Of a stretch of 44,569 nucleotides of DNA, positions 4,333 through 36,215 are shown piece after piece. The first letter of the stretch is position 1; every line of letters starts with the position of its first letter. The position numbers and the translations under genes are program-made. Below the pieces are notes generated by a model. It did not search any database, was not told the origin of the DNA, and saw only the letters and a program-made list of their open reading frames with translations. This DNA is from a virus. The DNA lies in the IMG/VR virus record IMGVR_UViG_3300036894_000035, positions 1-44,569 of that record. One strand, 5' to 3'.

Positions 4333-6114
4333 TTAGACCGCCGTCCTATTCATGATCCACCAGAGAGCGGAACCAGCCGAGCCAGTCTGGGAGCACATAT
4401 ATAGATTTCCACCGAACATAATTAGCTGCCCGATGGTGCCCGGCGATGCCGCGCTTGTAGGAGCGGCTGCGGCTGCCTTCGCCATGTACATAGCGCCGAG
4501 ATTGTCCACCGCCCAGACTTGTGTGGTGCCCGCCGCACCTGCGAAACAGTTAATCATGAAGTTCGCAGTGCCGAGCAACGCAGTCTCAGTGACGGCGACC
4601 TTTAGAGCCGTATAAGAGCCCGATGCCGTAAGGGTCTGGTTGATCGTGGGGGCGATTTGCATGGCAGTGAAGGTGCCAGCACCAGCCGTGGGTGCCCAGT
4701 TCAGATGCACGGAGTTGTTCCCGCCGAGGCTAACCTCTGCGCCGACGTTGATGCCTATGTATGGACCTGCCCCAGTTGTTGCCCATGTTGATCCACCATG
4801 CCCCAAGCTAACAAGAGGTTTTCCACCCGTGTAAGTAGCTGATGGAGACTGGGCGCTGCCAATCTCGGCGGTCCCCAACGCCAATTGATTGTACAAACCA
4901 AAGCTAACGCTTGTGCTTTGCGACGTTATGCTGCCTTGATTAGTACCTCCTTGATAGCCACGCATTATGTCCACACTGCCAGCAATCGTAGCCACTAAGA
5001 GTGGGAAACTAGCATTGCCCCCAATGCTAATTCCGCAAGTAGCTCCCGCTGGACCGATGATCTGTGGATCGGTAACGCCGTAGCTTAGCGGCGTCGGTAA
5101 CTGAATCTGCGCTGCACCTGTCGTTCCTGTGTGTGCGATGGTCAAGGTGCTGATGGCGTTCGTGCCCGCTGTCATCACCGAGCCTATCGTCCATTGGTCG
5201 TTGGCTGATGCAGCACCCGTCCAGTACTGTGCGCTCACACCGAGCAACGGCGAAGCATTAGTCGTGATCGCTGACGCGGTTGTTGTGTTCTCCCAATCCC
5301 AAAGCACGGCTGAAGTCTGGTTAAATGTCGTCGTGAAGCCAGCGTTCGCGATGCTCATGTTGCCATTAGCCGAACCGATATGATTCCAGATCACTGCCCC
5401 GCTGACGGCAATAGCAGCCGCCACAAACGCGTCCGTTGCGATCTGAGTACTAGCATCCCCCGGTGTGCCAGTTACGCTTGTAGGCGTTCCTGTGAGTGCT
5501 GGAGACGCTAATGGTGCTGCGCCTGTAACTTGAGCAACGGTGTAATCCCCAGAAACAGCTACAACCGCACCAGTACGACCGAAGACGCTGGTGACGCCGC
5601 TGACGATAGTTGTCCATGCAGGAAGACCGCCCACAACCGTGAGCACCTGACCCGTGGTGCCAATGCCCAATCTCGCCGCAGCGGGGGTGGAGTTGTTGAT
5701 GATGATGTCCCCCGCCGTAGTCATGGGGTTCACGAAACTTGCTGGAGCGTTGACCCACTGGATGGTTGTGCCCGTGGAGCTTAGTAACTGCCCAGCGGAG
5801 CCGACTGAGCCAAGTCCATCTTCCAGCGTACCAGTCACGTCCAAGTTGACGGTCTGAATATTTGCAAAGTCCGTCGTGCCAGTAAACATGCCGTTGTTGA
5901 GGGTGGTGATTGCGCCAGTGGAGCCGAAAACGCTTGTAACTCCACCGCCAGTGCCAGCGACGATGATGTCGAGTCCATTCGAGTCAATGACGCGGAACTG
6001 ATCTGCGGTGCTGTCATAGAATGCACGCGCAGTTAGGACAGGGGGATTCGCAGGCGGTCCATTCTGACCGTGAAAATCTTGGATGTTTCCCTTGTTGTAT
6101 GACGACTGGCTCAT
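4333..6114 (-). CDS. Tail fibre protein A
   Basis: 593 residues, low-complexity beta-rich Thr/Ala/Gly/Ser sequence. Residues about 10-52 (IQDFHGQNGPPANPP..., ending FRVIDSNGLDII) match the N-terminus of the next gene and look like a virion docking module. Residues 174-235 hold a module (SVFGRTGAVVAVSGDYTVAQ, then a TDAFVAAAI-type repeat) shared with the fibre gene at 20122-21372. TDAFV/TTAFV repeats are typical of phage side-tail-fibre shafts. The C-terminus (ALWWIMNR) is probably the globular tip. The ribosome site AGGGAAA precedes the start. Confidence 0.85.
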   Translation of the reverse strand: MSQSSYNKGNIQDFHGQNGPPANPPVLTARAFYDSTADQFRVIDSNGLDIIVAGTGGGVTSVFGSTGAITTLNNGMFTGTTDFANIQTVNLDVTGTLEDGLGSVGSAGQLLSSTGTTIQWVNAPASFVNPMTTAGDIIINNSTPAAARLGIGTTGQVLTVVGGLPAWTTIVSGVTSVFGRTGAVVAVSGDYTVAQVTGAAPLASPALTGTPTSVTGTPGDASTQIATDAFVAAAIAVSGAVIWNHIGSANGNMSIANAGFTTTFNQTSAVLWDWENTTTASAITTNASPLLGVSAQYWTGAASANDQWTIGSVMTAGTNAISTLTIAHTGTTGAAQIQLPTPLSYGVTDPQIIGPAGATCGISIGGNASFPLLVATIAGSVDIMRGYQGGTNQGSITSQSTSVSFGLYNQLALGTAEIGSAQSPSATYTGGKPLVSLGHGGSTWATTGAGPYIGINVGAEVSLGGNNSVHLNWAPTAGAGTFTAMQIAPTINQTLTASGSYTALKVAVTETALLGTANFMINCFAGAAGTTQVWAVDNLGAMYMAKAAAAAPTSAASPGTIGQLIMFGGNLYMCSQTGSAGSALWWIMNRTAV

Positions 6115-12888: not shown

Positions 12889-15800
12889 TTAATATGCTCC
12901 TGTGATGGGGCTCATCGGGTCGTTAGCCAGCCGCACCAGCATCTTGCTCAAGGTGTACTTACCCCCAACTTGATTCATGCGGAACTGGAAGAACATGCGG
13001 TTACAGGCAATGTCGATCTTCCGCTCTAAGTCAAACTGACCAGAGTTGAAAACGTTCGGGTCTGCAACGTTAAGAGTGATACCACCGGGCACAGACCGTG
13101 GGCGGTAGCAGTTAATGACGTTTTGGAGGAACGTGAGGTTCATGAGCCCCGCACCCTTCAAAGTGAGTTGCAGCCTGCGGTACATTTTTCGGCAGTTGCC
13201 AACCAGAGGACCAAACATCTGCTCTTGGTCAGGTTTGACGAAGCCGAACGTCGTGTACACGGAATCAATCGCTACGCCGTCATCGCTGAGTTGCGTGTCC
13301 AGCAGTTGGTAGATTTTGGACGACTGAATCCCGTTGCACAGGAAGAGCGGATTGCTCGTGTCAGGGCGCTGGATGAAGTCCGCATATGGCGTAGGGAGAG
13401 TCCATATTGACCATTTCCGGGACATGTCCCACGCTACGAGCTTGCCGGAGAACGTGACCTTCATTGGGGCAAGGTTCTCCAAAGCTGCTGCGGTGTTCAG
13501 TTCGCGGTAATTCATCACGAGAATGACGTTGGGTGATGTCGGGTTAGCGTTCACTGGCGCGTTAGGCAACCACTGATTCGGTGTTGCCATCGGGACGCCG
13601 ATGAGCACACGACGGTTGATCTGATCGTTGCGGAGCCAGATTGTGTTGCCGTAAGTCCAGTTGATCGCTTCCCACGTAGGACCGATTTCAGTGTTGATGC
13701 GGACTGGGGAACCACCGCTGAAAATGAAGACTCCCTGACGGTTGGCCAAGAAGACCCACTCTTCGCCTTGGTCGTATGCCAGCGGGCCGACAGCACCCAC
13801 AACGTTGCTGACTTCGTGGACATCCCAGCCACTCGGCTCTGAGTTAGCGGAGTCACTCGTGCTGAACATGCTTCCCGTCTTCAGGAAGTAGAGGATGTCC
13901 CACAAAACGAAAGCGCCCACTGTTGGCTGTTCGTTGGTCTCTGCCAAACCGATGAACCCAGTGTTTGAGTCAAATTGTTCTGGCGCGTTGACATAACTCG
14001 CAGTTACCTGTGTGCTGAGGATCGGCTCTTCAGTTGGGAAGACTTCGATGCGGTCAAGTTCCACGTCATTACCGCTGGGACTGCGGGCGGTCACTCGTAC
14101 CGAGTAAGTGACATTGGGATCGGTGATGGCAACGTTGTATTGGTCGAGATACGCGGACTGAGTAAGCATCCCAACTGTGACTGGCGGCGAGCCCACTTCT
14201 TCCGCATAAACGCGGAGTAACAATCCACTTGGCACAGTGGGGAAGCCAGTCGTGTTTAACGTGCCGATGTACGTCTGCTGCACACTGGTCATGCTGGCAA
14301 ACGGGATGATGAACGGGTAGTCGAGCCCCGTAGCGGGGTCAAACAAATCGACCACAAGGCTGCTGGTGCCGCTAAGTCCGTGCCCGCTGATGTAATAGCT
14401 GAACCCAAAGATCGGGCTCAGTTGCAATGTGCCGTTGGGGACTACCGCTGTCCAGCCCGGTGGTTGAGCACCATTCAGGGTGACATTGGTGATATTGGTC
14501 GTGACGGTGCTGAGGGGTTGGAACCCGCCGTCAAACGAGCAGTTGAGGTAGTTGTACACTTTGTCTTCTTCGCCGCCGTACAGCATTCGTCCAGCGTAGG
14601 CGACGGCCCACACCGAGTTACCAAGCTCGACGTTGGAAAGATAATCGCTACCTTGCTGGTCCACGCTCAAGCTGGCGAGAAGCACGGAGTCAGTGAAAGT
14701 GCCCGTCCAACTCGTGCTCGTGTTGTCGTTGATGATTGTGGCTGAGTAAGTTACGCTCACGCCGTTGTCAATGATGGTGACTGGGTTTGGAATGTAGAAG
14801 TAGAAGCCGCCAGCAACGCCGTTCGCACCTGAGCCAGTGAAGGCGAGGATGCGTGCGATGGTGTCAGGTGGACCAATGAGAATGTTGTTGACGGTGAGGC
14901 TATTCGCACTGCCCACGGTGTCGAATTGAACGAATGGTGAGCCGGGTGTGATTTCGCCGTTGCGTGTGAGGAAAAACAGGACGCAACGTCGCGTACCTGC
15001 CCCGATGTTGCCGCCAGTGGTTAAGGTGCCGCCGCCAGAGTTGCCGTAGATTGGATTGATGCCCGGAATAGGCAGCGTGCCTACCGTGATCGTGCCGGGA
15101 TCAAACTGGAAGATAGATGCGTTGACGACGGCGTTTCCCGTCTCACCCGCTGCACTAGTGTTGGGTCCAGTAAGTGCGATGGTGATGGTGCCGCCGCCAA
15201 TGCTGACGATTGATTGCTGAGTTACGTTGAAGATACCGTTCCCGTTAAGGGTGCCCGTGACGGTGATAAGCTGACCTACGAGCGGCGTGGTGCCACTTAC
15301 GAGCGTGTAGCCGTAACTAGCTACGTTCGCAGTTAGGCTGGTGCTGGTGATGCTGAGTTGTGCGCCGTTAAGTTCGGCGGTGATTGTCCATGCGCCGTCC
15401 CATGCGCCGATGGTCACGCCACTTAGGGTCACAGAGTCGCCTACGCTAACATCTGCTGCTGGCGTTGTAAGTGTGAGCGTAGCCAGTGACACCTGATAAG
15501 TCGCTCCTGCGATGTCTCCCGCTACGGGGGCACCGTAAATAGCTTGCGACACCGATACGGAATAGGTGAAGTAGTATTGATTCGTCGCCAGATTTAGACC
15601 AACGCTGGTTACGATCTGGGTGCCGTTTCCACCAGCCATAGCACCCGACATGCCGCTGATATAGATGAGGGAGCCCAAGATGATGAGCGGGTCTTGCGCT
15701 CCGTTGTAAAACAGCGTGATTACGTTGCCCGGTGCTTGGTTGTTCAAACCGACAGTCCACGACGCACCTTGAAACGGATGCGACGGAGCTTGGGTGATAC

Positions 15801-17319
15801 CGAGCGGAGAAGCCTTGATTGGATAGCTCGTGGACGTTGCGATTACGCTCGGAGCAGCGCCCGGACCAACTTGGGAGATGCGATCAAAGTTGTCGGTGCC
15901 GTCATACTGGCGCGGCACATCCGTACCCTGAGTCAGGTCGGAGAAACACATGTATTCGCGACCAAACTGAGTTACACTCTTGCAGTAGGCGTTGGGCACG
16001 ATCCCTTGGAAAAGGTTGACCAAAACGTTGGGATTGCCGATTACGTCCTCACCCCAAATCACACCGTTGGCGTCCAGTGCGAGTGTTTCGCATGACCCCG
16101 AAGGTGGGGCGTAGGTTTTGACATAGTTGAAGTTGTCGCTGGTGCCTGTGGTGAAAACCTGCACCGAAACATAATCAAGAGATGTGAGCGACGGAGGCGG
16201 GTTTCCGATCACGCGGATTCCTACGCCGAATTGAGACGAATTGACATCGGAGTAAGCCCATGACTGACCCCAGTTATCGGTAGCATCACCGAACAGGAAT
16301 GGAGTTATGGCTCCAGTTGGAGGAAGAGCTAGAATCTTAGGCTCGGTGACAGCAACGCCGCCTTTCAGCAGGTAGACTTCAACCGTGACCGTTCCCGTCT
16401 GCTTTGCATACAGTCCGACTTGAATGCCCGTGATCGCGCTAGTTGCCGCAACACTGAAACCGTAGCCCAGCACATTGAGTTGTGCGCTCTCGCTTACTCC
16501 CACGAAAGCGTAAGTGACGGTGATTTTGACAGCGTTGACCCCCACGGTGTCATTACCCGTGCCCGTGGCATCGCTGAAAATCAGAGTGACGCCGAAATAC
16601 TGGGCGTTGACATCCGCCGACGAAAGACTCGTCCCCCAAAGGTCGGCTGAGCCGCCTAGCGTGATGGTGCTTCTTTCTGAACCGAGCGTTGCCGCAGCGG
16701 TCTTGGCGGTGCCAACGGGCACTTGACCAGACGATAGTTGAACAGTCCATGTGCCAGCCGATCCGATGCCGGGGGTCGTGTACGCTTGGTTGAAACTAAC
16801 GGTGAACCCCGTTGGCACCGTCGAAAGCGGAAGGTTGAATCCGTAATTGAAACCAGTAAGTGGCTGGGTCGTGCGATACGCCACACCAGAACCGGGCAGA
16901 GTTACAGCGGACGCAAGATTGAAGCTCGTCAGTGTGATGTTTTGCGGGTTAGCCCACGGCACAGGTGGAGTGCCGAGATTGGTACTCGTTTGGGTGGGCA
17001 GCGATGGACCAACGCTTCCGCTGGCCACAAGATTGGCGGTAGTGACCGCGCCGTCAAGCGCGAGAATGTTGTTGGGGTTGATCCAGAAGACTCCCGCGTC
17101 TAACTGGTTGGTTGAGGAGCCGCCATTAGGACCAGATGACAAGCCGCTGAAGCTGTAAACGCTTTGCTCACCGGGACGCATGAGCACGGAGCCGATCTGA
17201 AAATCGTTGTTGTAGCAGAATGGTGACGCACCTTCAGGTACGTCGATGTCCGTGACTTCACTGATTAGCCCACCGAAATCGGTGAGGGGCACTGATGCGT
17301 AAGTTTGCTGTTGCGGCAA
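12889..17319 (-). CDS. Very large virion protein (tail hub/stabilisation-type N-terminus)
   Basis: 1476 residues, the largest gene. The N-terminus (LTDFGGLISEVTDIDVPEGA, then YNNDFQIGSVLMRPG) resembles the start of podoviral DNA-stabilisation/tail-hub proteins, where a 'GGLN...A-x-N...G-x-L-x-x-R-G' pattern is usual. The middle is many Ig/fibronectin-like Thr/Val/Gly-rich repeats. The last 300 residues are less repetitive (DLERKIDIACNRMFFQFRMN) and probably form the conserved structural domain. The start is a TTG at 17319: AGGAG sits six bases upstream and no ATG is better placed. It is likely a tail tube/adaptor assembled from propeller and Ig modules. Confidence 0.7.
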   Translation of the reverse strand: MPQQQTYASVPLTDFGGLISEVTDIDVPEGASPFCYNNDFQIGSVLMRPGEQSVYSFSGLSSGPNGGSSTNQLDAGVFWINPNNILALDGAVTTANLVASGSVGPSLPTQTSTNLGTPPVPWANPQNITLTSFNLASAVTLPGSGVAYRTTQPLTGFNYGFNLPLSTVPTGFTVSFNQAYTTPGIGSAGTWTVQLSSGQVPVGTAKTAAATLGSERSTITLGGSADLWGTSLSSADVNAQYFGVTLIFSDATGTGNDTVGVNAVKITVTYAFVGVSESAQLNVLGYGFSVAATSAITGIQVGLYAKQTGTVTVEVYLLKGGVAVTEPKILALPPTGAITPFLFGDATDNWGQSWAYSDVNSSQFGVGIRVIGNPPPSLTSLDYVSVQVFTTGTSDNFNYVKTYAPPSGSCETLALDANGVIWGEDVIGNPNVLVNLFQGIVPNAYCKSVTQFGREYMCFSDLTQGTDVPRQYDGTDNFDRISQVGPGAAPSVIATSTSYPIKASPLGITQAPSHPFQGASWTVGLNNQAPGNVITLFYNGAQDPLIILGSLIYISGMSGAMAGGNGTQIVTSVGLNLATNQYYFTYSVSVSQAIYGAPVAGDIAGATYQVSLATLTLTTPAADVSVGDSVTLSGVTIGAWDGAWTITAELNGAQLSITSTSLTANVASYGYTLVSGTTPLVGQLITVTGTLNGNGIFNVTQQSIVSIGGGTITIALTGPNTSAAGETGNAVVNASIFQFDPGTITVGTLPIPGINPIYGNSGGGTLTTGGNIGAGTRRCVLFFLTRNGEITPGSPFVQFDTVGSANSLTVNNILIGPPDTIARILAFTGSGANGVAGGFYFYIPNPVTIIDNGVSVTYSATIINDNTSTSWTGTFTDSVLLASLSVDQQGSDYLSNVELGNSVWAVAYAGRMLYGGEEDKVYNYLNCSFDGGFQPLSTVTTNITNVTLNGAQPPGWTAVVPNGTLQLSPIFGFSYYISGHGLSGTSSLVVDLFDPATGLDYPFIIPFASMTSVQQTYIGTLNTTGFPTVPSGLLLRVYAEEVGSPPVTVGMLTQSAYLDQYNVAITDPNVTYSVRVTARSPSGNDVELDRIEVFPTEEPILSTQVTASYVNAPEQFDSNTGFIGLAETNEQPTVGAFVLWDILYFLKTGSMFSTSDSANSEPSGWDVHEVSNVVGAVGPLAYDQGEEWVFLANRQGVFIFSGGSPVRINTEIGPTWEAINWTYGNTIWLRNDQINRRVLIGVPMATPNQWLPNAPVNANPTSPNVILVMNYRELNTAAALENLAPMKVTFSGKLVAWDMSRKWSIWTLPTPYADFIQRPDTSNPLFLCNGIQSSKIYQLLDTQLSDDGVAIDSVYTTFGFVKPDQEQMFGPLVGNCRKMYRRLQLTLKGAGLMNLTFLQNVINCYRPRSVPGGITLNVADPNVFNSGQFDLERKIDIACNRMFFQFRMNQVGGKYTLSKMLVRLANDPMSPITGAY

Positions 17320-17393: not shown

Positions 17394-18635
17394 TTAGATT
17401 TCGCGGTTAAACGACGCCGCGAATGCGATTGTGTCGCCGCTGACGCCTGCGGGGATACTGACCACGCTGGAGCCGGGGCTGTTAATGGCTGTTGCAGCCG
17501 CAATTGTCACTGCGCCTGAAGTAGTCACAACACCCGCGATGGCGCGACCGTTGAGGGTTCCGCCGCCGAGTGTGATAGAGGTGTTAGCGAGGATCGTGCC
17601 GACCATGTTGGTCGTGGTGCCGAGCGTCATCGAGCTTCCGACCAGCCAGACTACGTTTGCAGCCGTCGCACCATTCGTTAAGGAGATGGTTTGGGCGTTG
17701 GCAAGCGAAATCGTGGACGATCCCTTGAACACGTAAAGACCGGGACCATTCAGGACGAGACCCAAAGAGCAGGTTGCCGCACCGAATGAGTAGTTGCCGG
17801 GGGTGACGACGTTGGAGCCGCTGAATGCCGTGCTCAAGTCGAGAGCCCCACCCAGAGACGTGAACGTCAGGGCGGAATAGGCGTTGTAGGCGACGAGGGC
17901 CGCTGCTTGACCCGCAGCCGCATTTACGTTGTCCACGGTTGCGGTACCGCCGTCGAAGTTGATGGTCGTGGTTGGGAATGAGCCAATCACGCCGCCAGTT
18001 ACGACCGTGGAACCCGTGTTGGTGATTCCAGCCGCGGCAAGGATGGCGTAAGTTGCCGCGATACCGAGTTGGGCTGCAACACCCCCGCCGTTGTTGTTGG
18101 CGATTTCGACTTCAGGCGCATAGGTCGTGCCCGTCTCGAAAATCATCAGGGATTGCGTGGCATTGTTCCAGCGGTAGTTGTAGCCGTTGACGCCAGTGAA
18201 ACGAGCTTCCACTGGGACAGCGGTGACTACCTTCAGAGCTTCCATGCTCCAATTCACAGGCAATCCGCCTGCAAGATAAGGAGCGGGACCAGCTTCAATG
18301 GCGACTGTGCCACGGATGGTCTGCTTGTTGCCGCTGAAATCCGTACCACTTGGGTACGGCAAAAGGGTAAGAGCTACGCCCGCGATGCGGGTTGCCGTGG
18401 GTGCAGTTGGGGGCGAACCACCAGCGACTTCAACGACGGCGAAATAGCTCACGACTGTGAGGGTTGTGGCGGTACTGGCGGCAACCTTGTAGGTGCCGTT
18501 GTTCCCTTTGTTGGTCCAGCCAACGATTTCGTAAGTTTGACCGACAAGCGCGTTTGCGGCCCCACCAGTGATCGTGCCTGTGTAGACGGTTTGCCCGTAG
18601 ATTGATTGTGCGACGGATGTAAGTGCGAGTGACAT
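17394..18635 (-). CDS. Virion appendage protein with DUF3494 (ice-binding-like) domain
   Basis: 413 residues. Residues about 1-185 are a phage-type beta-rich module (SIYGQTVYTGTITGG, then NKGNNGTYKVAASTATTLTV). Residues about 190-385 match the DUF3494/ice-binding protein pattern: LGIAATYAILAAAGITNTG at the start, VTPGNYSF, LNGPGLYVFKGSSTIS, NGATAANVVWLVGSSMTLGT, VGTILANTSITLGG and LNGRAIA. Known members are secreted beta-solenoids that bind ice or act as adhesins in microbes. No signal peptide is present and the gene sits inside the virion operon, so the domain is probably displayed on the particle. Whether it binds ice or a glycan cannot be judged from sequence. Confidence 0.8.
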   Translation of the reverse strand: MSLALTSVAQSIYGQTVYTGTITGGAANALVGQTYEIVGWTNKGNNGTYKVAASTATTLTVVSYFAVVEVAGGSPPTAPTATRIAGVALTLLPYPSGTDFSGNKQTIRGTVAIEAGPAPYLAGGLPVNWSMEALKVVTAVPVEARFTGVNGYNYRWNNATQSLMIFETGTTYAPEVEIANNNGGGVAAQLGIAATYAILAAAGITNTGSTVVTGGVIGSFPTTTINFDGGTATVDNVNAAAGQAAALVAYNAYSALTFTSLGGALDLSTAFSGSNVVTPGNYSFGAATCSLGLVLNGPGLYVFKGSSTISLANAQTISLTNGATAANVVWLVGSSMTLGTTTNMVGTILANTSITLGGGTLNGRAIAGVVTTSGAVTIAAATAINSPGSSVVSIPAGVSGDTIAFAASFNREI

Positions 18636-18709
18636 GGGGGTATCCCCTCCTCAGGGTTGCGTACAGTGGCCGACATGCCACCTTCACCTAAGCATCTGGA
18701 AGTCGGGAA

Positions 18710-19577: not shown

Positions 19578-20105
19578 TTAGAGTGCTGCCCCCCAGTTAC
19601 GCACCAGCATCACGGCTTGCTCGTAGGAAAGGTTGCTTTTGGAACGGTTGGCTTTAAGACTAATAACCCAGATGTTGTCTTTGGTGTAACCACGAAGCGT
19701 GTCTCTGCGATCTAACTGGGGACTGTTATCATGCATAAAGCCGACGCCGTGCGTGAGGGGGATGCCAAGGAGCGGACAAAACTCGGGGATAATCACGTCT
19801 CCGGGTTGGATGTTAAATTCCATATTGTTTTTCTTTGCCCGACCTTTCGCGTTCTTCCACATCGTGTACTCGATTGCTTGCCGTCCACCTACCCAGCGTG
19901 CCATGCCGTTCGCTGCTCGCGCACTTCTTGGTGAACAACCACAACTTCTTCCACCCTTCGGCGAGTTTAGAGTTGGTCCCGTGAGTACCTTCTCTGTCCC
20001 GCAATCGCACCGCACTAACCAGCGTGACCTACCTTTTTGCGCTTCTGCGCTCTTGATGACAACCCAGCGACCAAATCGTTTTCCGACCAAATCTAAACGT
20101 CTCAT
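19578..20105 (-). CDS. HNH-type homing endonuclease
   Basis: 175 residues. The N-terminal module (GKRFGRWVVIKSAEAQKGRS, WLVRCDCGTEK, RSCGC) is the DNA-binding zinc-like motif often found in phage HNH proteins. The core reads CPLLGIPLTH, PQLDRRDTLRGY and NIWVISLKANRSKSN, an HNH variant with the D-R/N-x-x-G-Y...N-x-W/V-x-x-x-x-x-N pattern. It would cut a cognate DNA site so that its own gene is copied. It is free-standing between the fibre gene and a duplicated fibre end, and preceded by GGGTATTAG five bases from the ATG. Confidence 0.85.
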   Translation of the reverse strand: MRRLDLVGKRFGRWVVIKSAEAQKGRSRWLVRCDCGTEKVLTGPTLNSPKGGRSCGCSPRSARAANGMARWVGGRQAIEYTMWKNAKGRAKKNNMEFNIQPGDVIIPEFCPLLGIPLTHGVGFMHDNSPQLDRRDTLRGYTKDNIWVISLKANRSKSNLSYEQAVMLVRNWGAAL

Positions 20106-20121: not shown

Positions 20122-21372
20122 TTATGGGCGGGTACAAATGAGAGTTAAATTTAGGCGGGTGCAGGTTGTGACCGAGTTGACGTTGAACTGAATCTGGTCT
20201 CCCGCACTGAGAGCGGTCGTCCAAACACTGACAGCCAAGTTCTCGTTCTTTTGAACTGCTGACAACGTAGGCTTGTCCGAAGATGCAATCGAACTGGTGG
20301 TCGGAAATCCCGCATACGTAGAGCGAAGGACATCGACAACCGCACTTCCAGCCTGATCCGCTGTCAAAACCCAGCCAGTCAAGGTCGCGTTAAATGGGAG
20401 GTCAATTTGCCCCTTAGCTCCAGTCGTGATCAAAGCACCGCCGCCATCAATGACGTATTGGATGGCGAACGTGCGTGACTGCCATGATGCAGCCGAAGAT
20501 GACGTGGCGATGATCTGTTGCCCAGCGGTCGGAGTGCCTGTTACCGTGATGCCGCCGACAGAGGTTGAGTTAATCGTTCCCGTGCCACTTACGGTCAATG
20601 AACCGCCCGTGCCAACAACTAGGGCGACAGTGTTTGTGCCTGCGGTGATCGCACTGAATGCCATTGTGGTGGGGATAGCAGCCTGTACGAACGCCGTTGT
20701 CGCGAGTTGGGTCGTGTTAGTGCCTAATGTGGCTGTCGGCGCAGCAGGGACGCCCGTAAACGTCGGGGAAGCCAATGGAGCGGCTCCCGTGACCTGAGCT
20801 ACGGTGTAATCACCACTTACAGCGACAACTACGCCAGTGCGACCGAAAACTGAAGATACAGCGTTGGGAGAGTTGATCCAGAGCGTGCCAGTTACGGTGC
20901 TGCTAAGAAATTGACCATTCGTACCCACAGCGCCCGTGCTATCCGCAAAAGTGCCAGTAACACTGAGATTTCCGTCTGTTGCGCTTCCACTTACTACCAA
21001 GCTGCCTGTGCTGATGGTTTGTACCACCCCAACGCCGGGGTTCAGTAGAACCTGACCGCCGCCTATGAAAGCAAACGGGCCGCAAACGGGCTGGTCAATC
21101 AGAACATCGGTTATCACGCCGTTGTTGGGATAAACATACACTTCGGTGTAGTTGCCGGGTACAGCGTAATAGAAGGCATCGCCATACGCATCTACGACGA
21201 CTGGCTGAGCCATCGGAGTGCCAGATGAATCGGCGTAGATGGAGGCTAATGGTGAAGGTGGGATTGAGCCTGTGGTTGCAGGCTGTGTACACACATAAAT
21301 TTGGGCTCCATTTAGAGCCTTACCCCAAGGGTCGATGTAAAATCTTTGCGCTCTGATGAAAGGTCCAGCCAT
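20122..21372 (-). CDS. Tail fibre protein B
   Basis: 416 residues. Residues about 1-100 form a common phage fibre-base module (GKALNGAQIYVCTQPATTG, ASIYADSSGTPMAQPVVVDA, GNYTEVYVYPN). The middle shares with fibre A a DSTGAVGTNGQFLSST-type segment and SVFGRTGVVVAVSGDYTVAQ. A TTQLATTAFVQAAI shaft repeat follows, and the C-terminal domain ends FNVNSVTTCTRLNLTL. It probably trimerises and binds the receptor. The ribosome site GGAGG precedes the ATG. An HNH gene and a second copy of the C-terminal coding end lie downstream. Confidence 0.85.
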   Translation of the reverse strand: MAGPFIRAQRFYIDPWGKALNGAQIYVCTQPATTGSIPPSPLASIYADSSGTPMAQPVVVDAYGDAFYYAVPGNYTEVYVYPNNGVITDVLIDQPVCGPFAFIGGGQVLLNPGVGVVQTISTGSLVVSGSATDGNLSVTGTFADSTGAVGTNGQFLSSTVTGTLWINSPNAVSSVFGRTGVVVAVSGDYTVAQVTGAAPLASPTFTGVPAAPTATLGTNTTQLATTAFVQAAIPTTMAFSAITAGTNTVALVVGTGGSLTVSGTGTINSTSVGGITVTGTPTAGQQIIATSSSAASWQSRTFAIQYVIDGGGALITTGAKGQIDLPFNATLTGWVLTADQAGSAVVDVLRSTYAGFPTTSSIASSDKPTLSAVQKNENLAVSVWTTALSAGDQIQFNVNSVTTCTRLNLTLICTRP

Positions 21373-21374
21373 GC

Positions 21375-22208
21375 CTAATATCCTCCGTTGTACCCGCTGC
21401 CATAGCCGCCACTTGGGTGTCCAGCACCATATGGGATACGCTGAGTAACGATGCCCTGCTGTTGACGGGACTGACGCTGGCGTAGGCTATTCATCAGTAG
21501 CTCTGACTCCGCTTTCATTGCAGGTGCAGCTTCGGCGTCACGTGCCAAGGTGTAGAGATAGGCGATGCGGAAGCTCAAGTAATCGGTGCAGTCTGGAATC
21601 GGGATGTAAGTCGAACCGAAAGCGGCTCCGAGACCGATCAACGGTAGGGCGGAAGAGTAGCGGAGCTTCACGTCACGAATAGTCGTCGCACCATTCATCC
21701 AGACAGAATCGTTTCTCCATTCCCACTCACCAAAACATTGGCCTTGATAACGAGAGCTAAGACTTTCGACTTGACGCATCAGGGTGAAAGGGGTGCCGCT
21801 GGCGTTCTGGCGTTCCCACACTTCCAGCATCGTGATGCAGTCACTTGGTAGGGTGAGTCCGTAGTTGAAGCCGAGTCCGTCAAAATATCCGCCGAGACTA
21901 AGATTGACTTGCACAGCGGGATTGGGATTGCCCACGCCGCTGGCGGAATTGACTGGAGTAAGACCGAGAACAAGAACATTGTCTTTGACCACCGACTGAA
22001 CGCCGCCATTGCCTAAGTCACGGTACAGGCTACGCAAAGCGGAGTTGACCATTTTCAGGGTGAATGGGGATAAAGTGGGGTCGTCGGTGAGAATCTGACC
22101 TTCACCCGGCGTGCCAGTAAGACCGGGCAGCGTGTCGGCTACAAGCGCACGGGCGAGGTCCATTACTTCTTCCAACAAAACAAACGACGGCACCGGGGTC
22201 ACGGGCAT
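21375..22208 (-). CDS. Head-tail connector/neck protein (candidate)
   Basis: 277 residues. A helical N-terminus (FVLLEEVMDLARALVADTLP, then FTLKMVNSALRSLYRDLG) precedes a beta-rich middle (LTLPSDCITMLEVWER) and a helical region (DYLSFRIAYLYTLARDAEAA). The tail is Gly/Tyr-rich (SGGYGSGYNGGY). Helix-beta-helix proteins of this size located between capsid and tail genes are often head-completion or tail-adaptor proteins; this is inference. The ATG overlaps the HNH stop (TAATG). Confidence 0.6.
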   Translation of the reverse strand: MPVTPVPSFVLLEEVMDLARALVADTLPGLTGTPGEGQILTDDPTLSPFTLKMVNSALRSLYRDLGNGGVQSVVKDNVLVLGLTPVNSASGVGNPNPAVQVNLSLGGYFDGLGFNYGLTLPSDCITMLEVWERQNASGTPFTLMRQVESLSSRYQGQCFGEWEWRNDSVWMNGATTIRDVKLRYSSALPLIGLGAAFGSTYIPIPDCTDYLSFRIAYLYTLARDAEAAPAMKAESELLMNSLRQRQSRQQQGIVTQRIPYGAGHPSGGYGSGYNGGY

Positions 22209-22759
22209 TAAGTCACCACCTCAAGAGAATTGTGGGTTGCGACTTCCTGACACAATTCTAAAAACTTGTCGTAAGTCCAATCCTTTTTGAGCATGTTTAT
22301 TTCGTGGCAACAGGGCACACAGTTATCTAACGTGTATCCCTTTGTGTTGTCCAAACGGTCAATGCCGTTGTAAACATAGATTTCACCACTACCCGCTGTG
22401 CTGACCGTGGAGGGAAGTCTTCCCGTGAAAAAACACGGGCTCGAAGTCAATCGTTTGAAGTCATCCTCAGTCAACTCCCAAGGTAGTCCCCGCTCCCTAG
22501 CGCCGATTTTGTAGCGACCTAACACCACGCGAAAAGCTGAGCCTGATTTGATTTTGTGCGTATGTGACGTTGGCGTTTTGCCGAGAAGACAGCCACAACT
22601 CCGTGTCTTTTTTTGGTTTATGCTGAGAATGACGGATGTGTTCCCGCAATCACAGAGACACTCTAAGTACGCGATCCCTTGGGGGTTGCGCTGTCCAGTC
22701 CTACCTACGACGGTGAGAAGCCCGTTTCTGAGCCCAATGAAGCTTTTTGATTTACCCAT
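22208..22759 (-). CDS. HNH-type homing endonuclease
   Basis: 183 residues from the ATG at 22759 (MGKSKSFIGLRNGLLTVV); the frame is open upstream but no start there has a better ribosome site. The N-terminal module has CLCDCGNTS and RSCGC. The HNH core has CFFTGRLP, YNGIDRLDNTKGYTLDNCV, then PCCHEINMLKKDW, the D-R-x-D-x-x-x-G-Y...N-x-V-x-C-C...N signature. It is closely related to the 37196 HNH protein (both have GRLP, GIDRID/LD and NxVPCC). It is inserted between two structural genes with a stop-start overlap to the downstream one. Confidence 0.85.
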   Translation of the reverse strand: MGKSKSFIGLRNGLLTVVGRTGQRNPQGIAYLECLCDCGNTSVILSINQKKTRSCGCLLGKTPTSHTHKIKSGSAFRVVLGRYKIGARERGLPWELTEDDFKRLTSSPCFFTGRLPSTVSTAGSGEIYVYNGIDRLDNTKGYTLDNCVPCCHEINMLKKDWTYDKFLELCQEVATHNSLEVVT

Positions 22760-22859
22760 GGAGTACCTATCTAAAGGTTTTGGTAGACGCATCACGAGGT
22801 CAAGAGGGTGAGCCATCTCAGGAGAAACGGCCCATCCCCTCTTGACTGGTCGTGAAGAT

Positions 22860-23159
22860 TTATGCCAGCGAGACTTTGCCAGCGGCTTGCTGTAAGGTTG
22901 CCTTTTGATACTCTTCGAAGTTCTTCTTGTCGGAAGCCACACGAGGCTCGATAAACTGCTCGAACTCAGTTTTGTCGATGATCTTTTTGTGGATCAAAAA
23001 GTCGGTCAAATCGACCAACATCGGCAGCATGGGACCGAGAGAGTTAGCCAACGACTGAAGCATCAGGTGTAGCTGCTGTAGATCGGCAATGGATGCGGGC
23101 TGTGTGATAGCCTGCACTTCGTTGAGCGTCATTACGCGGTCTGTCTTCTCGCTTACCAT
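22860..23159 (-). CDS. Small helical virion-operon protein
   Basis: 99 residues from ATG 23159 (MVSEKTDRVMTLNEVQ), overlapping the end of the preceding gene by 7 bases. Helical with a hydrophobic central stretch (LMLQSLANSLGPMLPMLVDL) and a charged C-terminal helix. It could be an assembly chaperone or connector subunit. No family is recognised. A gap of about 100 bases then separates it from the HNH gene. Confidence 0.65.
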   Translation of the reverse strand: MVSEKTDRVMTLNEVQAITQPASIADLQQLHLMLQSLANSLGPMLPMLVDLTDFLIHKKIIDKTEFEQFIEPRVASDKKNFEEYQKATLQQAAGKVSLA

Positions 23160-32095: not shown

Positions 32096-33703
32096 TCAGT
32101 TTTTAACCCGATCCATCCAATTAGGAACCGTTATCTGCTTGATAACGTCATCCGCGTGACCACCCCGCATGGCTTGCTCGGCTAAGTACTGGTATCTCAT
32201 CCCATCATTCGGCATTTTAGCTACTTTTTCCGCATCCTTGACGGCTTTGGGTTTTGTGACAGGATTGAAGAAGCCCAGCAGCAGATATTTCAGGGCATCG
32301 AACAAATCGTCCGCCTTTGTGTCGGTCTTGAGCACATCTTCCCCTCGGTCGCCCTCACCCCGCTGAAATCCGGGCATGGCGGCGATGATGTCTTTGCAGT
32401 TATCGAGAAAAACGATGTCGCCCTGCTCGATAAGCTGCCAGAGATACACAGCGCCAGCGATGCGGTCGTTACAAGCAGGAGTTACGGGTGGAAGACCCAC
32501 TTCCCGAAGCTCGTTGGTCACATCGTCGGCGGGTCTGTGACTCGTGCTGGTGCCGCTACGGGAGAATTTTTCGTGGGAGAAAAAGATATGCTGGATTGTT
32601 TCGGTTTCGCCCAACGAGTTCTTGATGAGAGCGACCAAATCACGGGAACTGGTCTCGTTCTTGGCGATTTCCCGATAGATCACGATGACGGATTTGTAAG
32701 ATTTCTCGCCGGGAGCCTTGTACAGTGCACGTCTGCCGAACAAGATGCCACTGAAGTGACCCAGACCAAAGTCCCAGCCCACCGCACCTACTTCCCAGTC
32801 CTGCCAGACGATGGCATCGGGGTGTTTACGCAGGTTACACACGTGATAGCTCTCGGAAAAGTTCCCGTAGTACTGACCACTGCGGACATTGGGGTCACCG
32901 TACAGACGGAGCTTCTTTAGCTCGGGCGGTAAGGCTTGGAGGTCCTTCAAATATTTGGGGTTGATGCGAAGAAAATTGGGATTCTCCAAAACGGTGGAGT
33001 GCGTGTAGAAATAATCCTTCGGGTCGTACATCAAAACGGGCTTGCCGTTTTCGTACATATAATATCTGCCTTGCGTGTCATGGACCGCGCCCTCAGGGAT
33101 TCTCCAAGGCTTGTGGTCGATCCACAAAGCTTTTATGAAACCAAATCCGATGCCGAACGGGTTCGTGCAAGCCATCATTTGCGGAATGGGGTACGCGCCA
33201 TTGGCATCAGGCTTGACGCCGGGGTTAAGACGGTTACGACCTTGAAGCTTGGACCACGATTCATGGCGAAACTGTCCAGCTTCGTCCACGCCAATAAAAG
33301 CAAACGACGATGACAAGTACTGGTCAAGGTCGGCTTCGCTATTGTTGGTGCATGAGCCGAAGAAGATGCGGCTACCGTTAAAAAAGGTAGCTACTAATTT
33401 TGTAGAGTTGAGCGTGTAAATCTTTTCGGCTATCTCTGGCGGCCATAGCTTTTTCAAGTCAGAAACAAGACCCTGTTCCAACTCGCGAAACTTTCTGCGG
33501 AGCAGAAGAGCGTCGCAGTTTCCAAAGCGGAGAACGAAAGAGAACAGGGCGTGCAGGAGCAAGCACTTTGACTTGCCCGAACCATAACCACCGATCATCA
33601 GCAGGTTCGCTGCGTCAGAGTCGTGGATAGCTTGCTGGTGGGCATAGCAAGATTCTGGATACCACGCAGAGTTGATCGCGGCGTTTAGGTCAAACGGCGG
33701 CAT
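32096..33703 (-). CDS. terL: Terminase large subunit
   Basis: 535 residues from the ATG at 33703, chosen because AGGAG lies six bases upstream; the open frame continues upstream across the HNH gene but without a better start. ATPase motifs: Walker A GGYGSGKS (38-45) and Walker B FIGVDE (136-141). Nuclease (RNase H-like) motifs: VGWDFGLG with Asp311, and KADDLFDAL (464-471) near the C-terminus. It cuts and pumps concatemeric DNA into the prohead through the portal. The start overlaps the HNH stop by 14 bases, a sign of later insertion of the nuclease gene. Confidence 0.95.
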   Translation of the reverse strand: MPPFDLNAAINSAWYPESCYAHQQAIHDSDAANLLMIGGYGSGKSKCLLLHALFSFVLRFGNCDALLLRRKFRELEQGLVSDLKKLWPPEIAEKIYTLNSTKLVATFFNGSRIFFGSCTNNSEADLDQYLSSSFAFIGVDEAGQFRHESWSKLQGRNRLNPGVKPDANGAYPIPQMMACTNPFGIGFGFIKALWIDHKPWRIPEGAVHDTQGRYYMYENGKPVLMYDPKDYFYTHSTVLENPNFLRINPKYLKDLQALPPELKKLRLYGDPNVRSGQYYGNFSESYHVCNLRKHPDAIVWQDWEVGAVGWDFGLGHFSGILFGRRALYKAPGEKSYKSVIVIYREIAKNETSSRDLVALIKNSLGETETIQHIFFSHEKFSRSGTSTSHRPADDVTNELREVGLPPVTPACNDRIAGAVYLWQLIEQGDIVFLDNCKDIIAAMPGFQRGEGDRGEDVLKTDTKADDLFDALKYLLLGFFNPVTKPKAVKDAEKVAKMPNDGMRYQYLAEQAMRGGHADDVIKQITVPNWMDRVKN

Positions 33704-34196
33704 TGGTTCTCCTGCTACGCCGATTGTTTGCCTGCCCCCTTTTCGTAGCCCAGCGGACGTTACCGGGCTCATAGTGACCGTCATTGTCGATGCGGTCTAC
33801 GGAGTAGGCACGTTTTGGTTCTGGCTTGTCGCCAAGTTCCGCATACCACTCTTCGAAAGAGTTGAACTTGAATTGAATGCCGCGACCGCCGTAGTCCGGC
33901 CAGTTTTTTGTGTTGGGATCAGTGCAGCGCTGTATGGCTCCCGTAAAAGCTGAATGCTCCGGTGAAACGTTATGCGTGCGTGCGTGACCGTGACGGAGCG
34001 TTCTCGCGACAGTCAGTTCTATCTTGAGACATCCGCAGCTTCGTGTGTTCCCGTTCCGCAAGTTAGTCCCGCGTGCCTGTATCTGGTTGCCACAGGAACA
34101 TTCGCAGGCCCAGATAACTCCGCACCTATCACGCCCTACTTCGGACAGCACGGTCAACCTGCCGAAAACCTGCTTGGTCAAATCTATTTTTCTCAT
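33690..34196 (-). CDS. HNH-type homing endonuclease between terminase genes
   Basis: 168 residues from ATG 34196 (MRKIDLTKQVFGRL) with AAGGAA upstream. N-terminal module: CECSCGNQIQARGTNLRNGN and RSCGC. Core: HSAFTGAIQRCTDPN, YGGRGIQFKF, YSVDRIDNDGHYEPGNVRW and QANNRRSRR, typical of HNH/AP2-type phage homing nucleases. It lies exactly between the candidate small terminase (stop 34201) and the large terminase, a known hot spot for such insertions. It may still be transcribed with the operon. Confidence 0.88.
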   Translation of the reverse strand: MRKIDLTKQVFGRLTVLSEVGRDRCGVIWACECSCGNQIQARGTNLRNGNTRSCGCLKIELTVARTLRHGHARTHNVSPEHSAFTGAIQRCTDPNTKNWPDYGGRGIQFKFNSFEEWYAELGDKPEPKRAYSVDRIDNDGHYEPGNVRWATKRGQANNRRSRRTNAAV

Positions 34197-35162: not shown

Positions 35163-36215
35163 TCATGCGTGGGCATAACTCACCTCGTGGGCCAATCCAG
35201 CCCCGGCAATGAGGGCATTGCGGGCGGAATTGACATCCCGCTCGTGGTGGGCACCACATGCCCCGCACACCCATTGCCTTACCTTGAGCCCCGCCAAGCC
35301 CGTCGGCCCAGACAAAGCGCCACAGGTAGAGCAGGTTCTCGTGGAATTTTTGTTCTCGGGAAAGACGAGTTCCGTGCCGCCGATAAGGCTCTTGTACGAA
35401 AGATTACGTCTCAACCCACCGTGCGCCGAATCGCACACGGATTTTCCAAACCTCTTTGCTATCGCCCGATGATTGTCTTTGAGAAAACAGATAATCTTGT
35501 TCTCGGCAACCAACGTCCTGCTCAACTTGTGATTCCGATCCTTGCGCTTGTTTGAAACCCTCTCATGTATGCGTGCCGTTAGTTGCTTGCGGTGCCCTCG
35601 CTGTGCTTGAGCAAGCCGCTTGGCGGCGATCCGTAGCTCGCGGGGATGTTCGATAATCTCGCCGTCGCTGAAAGTGAGCAAATCCTTGAAGCCGGGGTCG
35701 ATGCCGATGACGCCTTCTGCCGTGCGAGTTATAGTCTTCGGCTCGGCATCAATGAACAAGCACAGATGCCAACCCGATGCCCGCTTGACCAGACGACCAC
35801 ACTTGATCTTGCCTTCGGGAATGTCCATCCCGTGAAACCTGACTTTACCAATGCCCGGAAGCCGTATCTTGTTCCCCTCGGGTTCCGTAATCGGGTCGGG
35901 GAATGGTATGGAGTTGAGCGGTCTCCGCATTCCCTTAAGCCGTGGTTTCTTCGCCAATCCTTTGAAACACCGTGACCATGACTGGTGAACCGTGACAAGC
36001 ACACCCTGAATTGTGTGCGACGGAATGCCCAGTTTTTCTCCGTGGTTCGCCAACAAGTTTTGGAACTCGTGCTTGGGGAAATAAATCTTGTCCTTGGCGT
36101 TTAGCTCAACCTTCCGCACACCCCAATTCCAGATGGGGGTCAAGTGGTAGAGCCACTGACCACACGTCTGCTCTTGTTTGGTGTTGAGCCGAAGTTTGAG
36201 TTGGCACTGGATCAT
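35163..36215 (-). CDS. tnpB: TnpB, transposon-encoded RNA-guided nuclease
   Basis: 350 residues, slightly short for the family. An N-terminal helical DNA/RNA-binding domain is followed by the beta-barrel part (PLNSIPFPDP, then KIRLPGIGKVRFHG). The split RuvC site is intact: Asp173 in GIDPG, Glu238 in LVAENK and Asp327 in HERDVNSARN. The zinc ribbon has CSTC (295-298) and CGAC (317-320). Known TnpB proteins cut DNA next to a target motif using an omega RNA from the element's right end, favouring element retention. The start is a leaderless-type ATG six bases after a GAGTATTAG box. Likely active as a nuclease. Confidence 0.92.
   Translation of the reverse strand: MIQCQLKLRLNTKQEQTCGQWLYHLTPIWNWGVRKVELNAKDKIYFPKHEFQNLLANHGEKLGIPSHTIQGVLVTVHQSWSRCFKGLAKKPRLKGMRRPLNSIPFPDPITEPEGNKIRLPGIGKVRFHGMDIPEGKIKCGRLVKRASGWHLCLFIDAEPKTITRTAEGVIGIDPGFKDLLTFSDGEIIEHPRELRIAAKRLAQAQRGHRKQLTARIHERVSNKRKDRNHKLSRTLVAENKIICFLKDNHRAIAKRFGKSVCDSAHGGLRRNLSYKSLIGGTELVFPENKNSTRTCSTCGALSGPTGLAGLKVRQWVCGACGAHHERDVNSARNALIAGAGLAHEVSYAHA

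Follow-up and report, generated by a model that had tools for sequence, protein, structure and literature searches.

A DUF3494 domain of the ice-binding family encoded within virion genes of tailed phages

INTRODUCTION

The DUF3494 domain is known from microbial ice-binding proteins that include AnpIBP (PDB 7BWX), EfcIBP (6EIO), FfIBP (4NU2) and SfIBP_1 (6BG8). The ice-binding strands of AnpIBP have been published, and substitution of either S153 or T156 by tyrosine leaves 17% of its activity (PMC7277481). Reports of DUF3494 also extend to substrate-binding proteins and to places free of ice (PMC12337378). A search of openly available journal papers found none linking DUF3494 with phages.

Exchangeable domains of another kind are familiar on phage particles, and Fraser et al. 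(2006) reportedly described promiscuous Ig-like domains on phage virions. According to a later source, such domains are promiscuous in structural proteins and are thought to aid adsorption (PMC9022992). Podoviruses of the SU10 type possess a portal, an adaptor and a nozzle, and the SU10 nozzle already holds inserted Ig-like domains (PMC9509320).

Here we describe a DUF3494 domain encoded by a whole IMG/VR virus record of 44 569 bases, which we term the window, and compare it with its relatives in other viruses and in cells.

RESULTS

Architecture and predicted fold of the protein

The DUF3494 domain is encoded by a virion-operon gene of 413 codons on the minus strand (17394..18635), identified from the open reading frame, a PF11999 match and an AlphaFold2 model. 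It begins with ATG at the position given in an earlier note on this DNA, and a Shine–Dalgarno sequence (AGGAGG, 18646..18651, minus) lies 10 bases before the start codon. Starting at the N terminus, the protein comprises a first module (residues 6–73; 18417..18620), a second module modelled with low confidence (residues 81–185; 18081..18395), the DUF3494 or Ice_binding (PF11999) β-solenoid domain (residues about 186–390; 17466..18080) found by profile, model and Foldseek, and a 23-residue C-terminal tail of low pLDDT (17397..17465), all on the minus strand. From its sequence, this tail possibly forms the final strand of a module that received the DUF3494 insert.

The assignment to DUF3494, proposed in the earlier note, is borne out by the PF11999 profile. 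This matches residues 198–379 with E = 3.3e-22 and 79.6 bits (the curated cut-off is 28.7), spanning model positions 1–203 of 208 and hence nearly the whole profile. The score is nearly three times the cut-off, far beyond chance. The AlphaFold2 model, calculated from 38 aligned viral sequences, shows the domain as a β-solenoid with a long helix (residues 239–254). The pLDDT of the domain is mostly above 90, with block means of 86–98 for residues 190–385; the N-terminal 185 residues are modelled poorly. In a Foldseek search of the PDB 31 chains of DUF3494 ice-binding proteins rank first (E from 3e-9 to 6e-7), and nothing else matches below E = 0.07. The predicted fold is therefore the solenoid that the note anticipated, and its significant PDB neighbours are all ice-binding chains. 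Among the solved relatives of the window domain the ice-binding proteins score best, with 5UYT at the top. PHROGs gave no match for the 413-aa protein. Profile and fold prediction together confirm that the window gene carries a complete DUF3494 domain.

The 'phage-style beta module' noted earlier in front of the domain is real, and it recurs across many related viral loci. It has a length of ∼65–75 aa with the pattern YTGTITGGAxNA..GQ....GFTN.GNNGT....STATTL, and occurs singly or in up to three tandem copies per protein. In the window it reads YTGTITGGA...GNNGTY..ASTATTLTV. A home-made HMM found the module, which occupies residues 6–73 (∼68 aa) of the window protein, in 56 proteins from 43 viral loci, duplicates included, and in none of the cellular loci scanned. 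The YTGTITGGA module is also present in L020, L032, L017, L034, L040, L041 and L026, and its carriers include adaptor-like and nozzle-like proteins. Pfam gave no match for it in the matched proteins scanned. No relatives were found for the second module.

Surroundings in the window

The DUF3494 gene belongs to a series of genes on the minus strand that also encodes a terminase, a protein weakly matching the SU10 adaptor and tail-fibre-like proteins. The terminase large subunit (32096..33784) matches Terminase_3 above cut-off and PHROG TerL with E = 1e-27. A protein of 277 aa (21375..22208) is a putative head–tail adaptor, its SU10_adaptor match (E = 0.0086) falling below cut-off. Directly downstream of the DUF3494 gene is a protein of 1476 aa (12889..17319, minus), a candidate tail nozzle judged by gene position and an N-terminal motif; neither this nor the neighbouring 847-aa gene matched any family. 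For an SU10-type assignment of the window's own phage the sequence offers the sub-threshold adaptor match, beside these two genes without family matches.

The virion operon also contains two HNH/endonuclease VII-like genes (19578–20105 and 22208–22942, minus), probably homing endonucleases. Two tail-fibre-like proteins (4333–6114 and 20122–21372, minus) share a segment that is 45% identical (residues 90–235 and 135–233), which suggests that a fibre stem was exchanged or duplicated. A transposase (35163–36215, minus; PHROG 506, E = 4e-58) lies between the packaging and replication regions. Elsewhere the window encodes an integrase, a Prim-Pol replication protein, a DNA methylase and the transposase.

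DUF3494 in other viral genomes

The domain had been called unusual for a virion. The virion context stands, and the domain is not isolated, since well over a hundred viral stretches carry it. When IMG/VR was first scanned, four domain sequences served as queries and 42 loci were recovered from 35 contigs. Each of these 35 records exceeds the PF11999 cut-off; together they contain 58 copies, with at least two copies in 17 of the 35 and six in a record of 223 kb. A broader profile, used for a second scan, gave at least 169 related stretches, in a viral sampling that relied on peptide patterns taken from these same sequences. Virion proteins fused to DUF3494, which the earlier note suggested seeking in phage genomes, are found in IMG/VR; INPHARED (50,697 records searched) contained neither a match to the window protein nor any DUF3494. 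In the viral structure library BFVD the domain occurs only in the giant Hyperionvirus, in three proteins (A0A3G5A745, A0A3G5ACG7 and A0A3G5AEI1).

In the 223-kb record G007 an 837-aa open reading frame (L009:9431-11944) has two DUF3494 domains, and the frame that follows (L009:12678-14117) has a third. Inspection by eye of L003:13903-17459, downstream of a DUF3494 gene, reveals reading frames resembling a sugar-nucleotide epimerase, an aminotransferase and a glycosyltransferase. No paper giving the habitats of the IMG samples was found; several of the sample numbers may denote boreal or subarctic peat.

Every one of these records is metagenomic, as would be expected if the association had arisen through faulty assembly or through cellular DNA in the viral contigs. 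However, many samples have yielded separate contigs that show this pattern and have hallmark genes next to the domain, and the domain boundaries fall within single open virion genes. Artefact of this kind has a negligible probability.

Carrier proteins and mobility

In blastn comparison with the loci of the first scan the window matches only within the domain (17474–18074, about 67–87% identity). The window terminase has no match in 30 DUF3494-bearing IMG/VR records; the same query matched 271 records of INPHARED.

Several classes of virion protein carry DUF3494 in the relatives: adaptor-like, nozzle-like and tail sheath proteins, in addition to stand-alone genes. In L016 and L020 it interrupts a head–tail adaptor-like protein, and in the adaptor homologues of L026, L040 and L041 both flanks are present with DUF3494 absent, giving a clean empty site. 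In the large β-propeller-type (nozzle-like) protein of L046 the domain lies between residues 471 and 694–709. In the L016 homologue the corresponding flanks are joined at position 976 with zero residues between them, and in that of L041 they are separated by ten residues (1292 to 1303). The nozzle-like protein of L040 and L041 has DUF3494 near its N terminus instead, and that of L026 at a third site. Two contractile tail sheath proteins from the second scan contain the domain, in L207 (1–4341; PHROG tail sheath E = 7e-24) and L224 (3350–6757; E = 5e-5). In L002, L022, L028 and L008 it is a separate gene near TerL and an SU10-type portal; the L008 copy closely follows the major head protein. 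Some viral copies adjoin fn3/PKD domains.

In a Foldseek search with a model of the nozzle-like protein, the DUF3494 chains are followed by the tails of phages Pa223, VP1 and SU10. The model has low confidence (mean pLDDT 56), and because the fold is poorly modelled the matches are taken as supporting only; they are in line with a tail nozzle. Profiles of the adaptor and nozzle-like proteins found nothing useful among solved structures beyond the DUF3494 part.

In these comparisons the viral DUF3494 behaves as a mobile insert that moves as one block. Exact peptide patterns located no close relative of the whole window protein in IMG/VR, nor its flanks without the domain, and a search of INPHARED for the protein or its flanks gave nothing above noise. 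No domain-less relative having been found, insertion into the window protein itself is inferred and not observed.

Lineage and selection

A tree was built from 136 domains, 76 of them viral and 60 cellular. In it 72 of the 76 viral sequences fall into one clade (SH-aLRT 86) with a core of 63 members (SH-aLRT 98); the trees are quick and unrooted, and the cellular sample comprises two broad groups and three loci. The window domain is placed deep within a clade of viral sequences only, with phage sequences of up to 76% identity closest to it. A recent origin of the window gene from a host is therefore rejected, contradicting the earlier suggestion of a domain acquired from the host, if taken as a recent event. 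An ancient origin of the viral domain from a cellular gene is likely. Two small viral groups (L045, L046 and L224) lie outside the main clade, suggesting separate acquisitions of DUF3494. For pairs of viral domains dN/dS is about 0.08–0.14 where synonymous change is unsaturated; on these codon comparisons purifying selection is shown. Two database genomes with oddly placed DUF3494 genes were considered as prophages, and on checking these proved to be ordinary cellular genes.

The N terminus of the window protein (MSLALTSVAQSIYGQTVYTG) has no signal peptide as judged by hydropathy rather than SignalP, in agreement with the earlier note. By the same measure strongly hydrophobic N termini are found in 3 of 71 viral and in 53 of 61 cellular reading frames, and two of the three viral examples resemble true signal peptides. 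These data bear upon the idea that the gene is a passenger, an auxiliary copy of the host's secreted ice-binding protein that acts outside the virion. In its favour, cells of both bacterial groups that were sampled commonly have DUF3494 genes, and the two signal-like N termini belong to frames on viral contigs (L182 and L204). Yet a signal peptide is absent from the window protein and nearly all its viral relatives, whereas most cellular proteins have one; moreover, DUF3494 is fused into virion proteins and the viral domains form their own clade. A passenger role is accordingly very improbable.

The presumed binding face

The ice-binding strands of AnpIBP were mapped onto the window domain by sequence alignment, with gaps in places in strand 2 and at the ends of strands 4 and 5. 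They correspond to AGITNT, STISLA, SSMTLG, TSITLG and GAVTIA, of which the second is less certain. On the outward face all 22 aligned positions are T, S, A or G, with the alignment of strand 2 gapped. These four residues fill 89% of the outward positions in 37 viral domains and 86% in 71, compared with 50 and 51% elsewhere. The equivalent of AnpIBP S153 is kept in 69 of the 71 viral domains, and that of T156 in 68; in the window protein the two correspond to S334 and T337. In the viral domains the outward positions are conserved above other columns (p = 0.0005 for 37 and 0.0016 for 71 domains), in a column-sampling test that assumes independence between columns. The cellular sample, the more diverse of the two, shows no such excess of conservation at these positions. 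An S/T-rich face is also found in cellular relatives, and is partly structural.

The face also bears on other possible roles of the domain. It might be structural filler, a stable solenoid acting in loops as a ligand-free spacer or stabiliser, for example against freeze–thaw or desiccation. The domain is indeed found at many sites in many proteins, and a compact rigid fold is tolerated as an insert. But a pure spacer has no need of a conserved flat face of small residues, and the outward positions are more conserved than the other columns; a role as filler is hence improbable.

Alternatively the domain could be displayed on the virion as an adhesin that binds polysaccharide of the host cell surface or matrix, so raising encounter with the host. 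Ig-like domains are found in structural proteins of phages in a similarly promiscuous pattern (PMC9022992), some DUF3494 copies stand beside fn3/PKD domains, and the family is represented among substrate-binding proteins (PMC12337378). Receptor-binding faces, by contrast, usually diversify with the host, and here, among phages whose genomes are unrelated, the presumed face is better conserved than the remainder of the domain. Nor do the structure matches include a known glycan-binding DUF3494. We consider glycan the ligand in a minority of plausible outcomes, and rather unlikely overall. A receptor-binding role, as suggested in the earlier note, is possible in principle; the conserved flat Thr/Ser/Ala/Gly face fits better with one common ligand, such as ice, than with a host-specific receptor.

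DISCUSSION

The explanation that we favour, and believe to be probable as a whole, is that of a mobile, phage-specific DUF3494 domain on the virion exterior of tailed phages that probably binds ice. Its two parts differ in strength. That the domain is a displayed adhesion domain of the virion is very likely. Given such display, that ice is the main ligand is somewhat favoured from the character of the face; the occurrence of DUF3494 in ice-free places (PMC12337378) counts against it.

The earlier proposal of a surface-attachment appendage is upheld for the relatives, by the insertions into adaptor, nozzle-like and sheath proteins, and for the window protein the placement comes from gene order. 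The position of its gene, between that of the putative adaptor and the large nozzle-like one, suggests that the product would join the head–tail or neck region of the virion. Adaptor, nozzle and sheath proteins assemble as multimeric rings. Carriers of this kind should therefore present many parallel copies of the domain, so that weak single contacts would add up. The flat face might then bind ice, either at crystal surfaces or at the ice–water boundary in freezing soil. Binding could keep virions in place at liquid films in which host cells collect; alternatively, it could stop crystals from damaging or expelling them. The broadest form of the proposal is that many tailed phages display an exchanged ice-binding domain on connectors, nozzles and sheaths, that these are the first ice-binding viruses known, and that their life cycle includes placement at the ice–water interface. 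We offer this tentatively, and its chances are a little short of even.

If the face does bind ice, these viruses would be particles with their own affinity for ice in ice-structured habitats and not just passengers, which would alter how models treat the survival of phages in freezing soils, their encounters and their transport. Even with another ligand, the domain would be a widespread virion adhesion module that PHROGs and INPHARED did not show. The phage domains may serve as stable ice-affinity domains for laboratory use. The domain is single, small and soluble, making the question of its ligand simple to test directly.

The window domain can be compared with several known systems. It is like AnpIBP, EfcIBP, FfIBP and SfIBP_1 in its Pfam family and in its predicted fold with the helix, and like the microbial ice-binding proteins generally in the flat b-face of small residues, on which the equivalents of S153 and T156 of AnpIBP are kept. 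Those proteins are cellular and are secreted or anchored, whereas the phage domain has no signal peptide, belongs to a separate clade and in relatives is embedded in virion proteins, its binding of ice being presumed. The bacterial ice adhesins SfIBP and MpIBP (region IV) embody a similar idea, an ice-binding domain carried by a surface appendage, but are found on the cell surface; the ice-binding domain of MpIBP belongs to another type. The Hyperionvirus proteins in BFVD are likewise DUF3494 encoded by a virus, though by a giant virus and not a tailed phage. With the SU10-type tail the likeness lies in an adaptor and nozzle of that kind as carriers in the relatives of the window gene. These carriers differ in holding a DUF3494 insert, and the window's own adaptor and nozzle are assigned from a weak match and by position, respectively. 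The Ig-like and fn3 domains of virions are similarly exchangeable, occur in several classes of structural protein and are displayed in many copies. They have the Ig fold, while the window domain is a β-solenoid of the ice-binding family without matches in PHROGs or INPHARED. Virion display of exchangeable domains is thus known from the Ig-like domains, and by analogy a solenoid of the ice-binding family would here play the same pattern.
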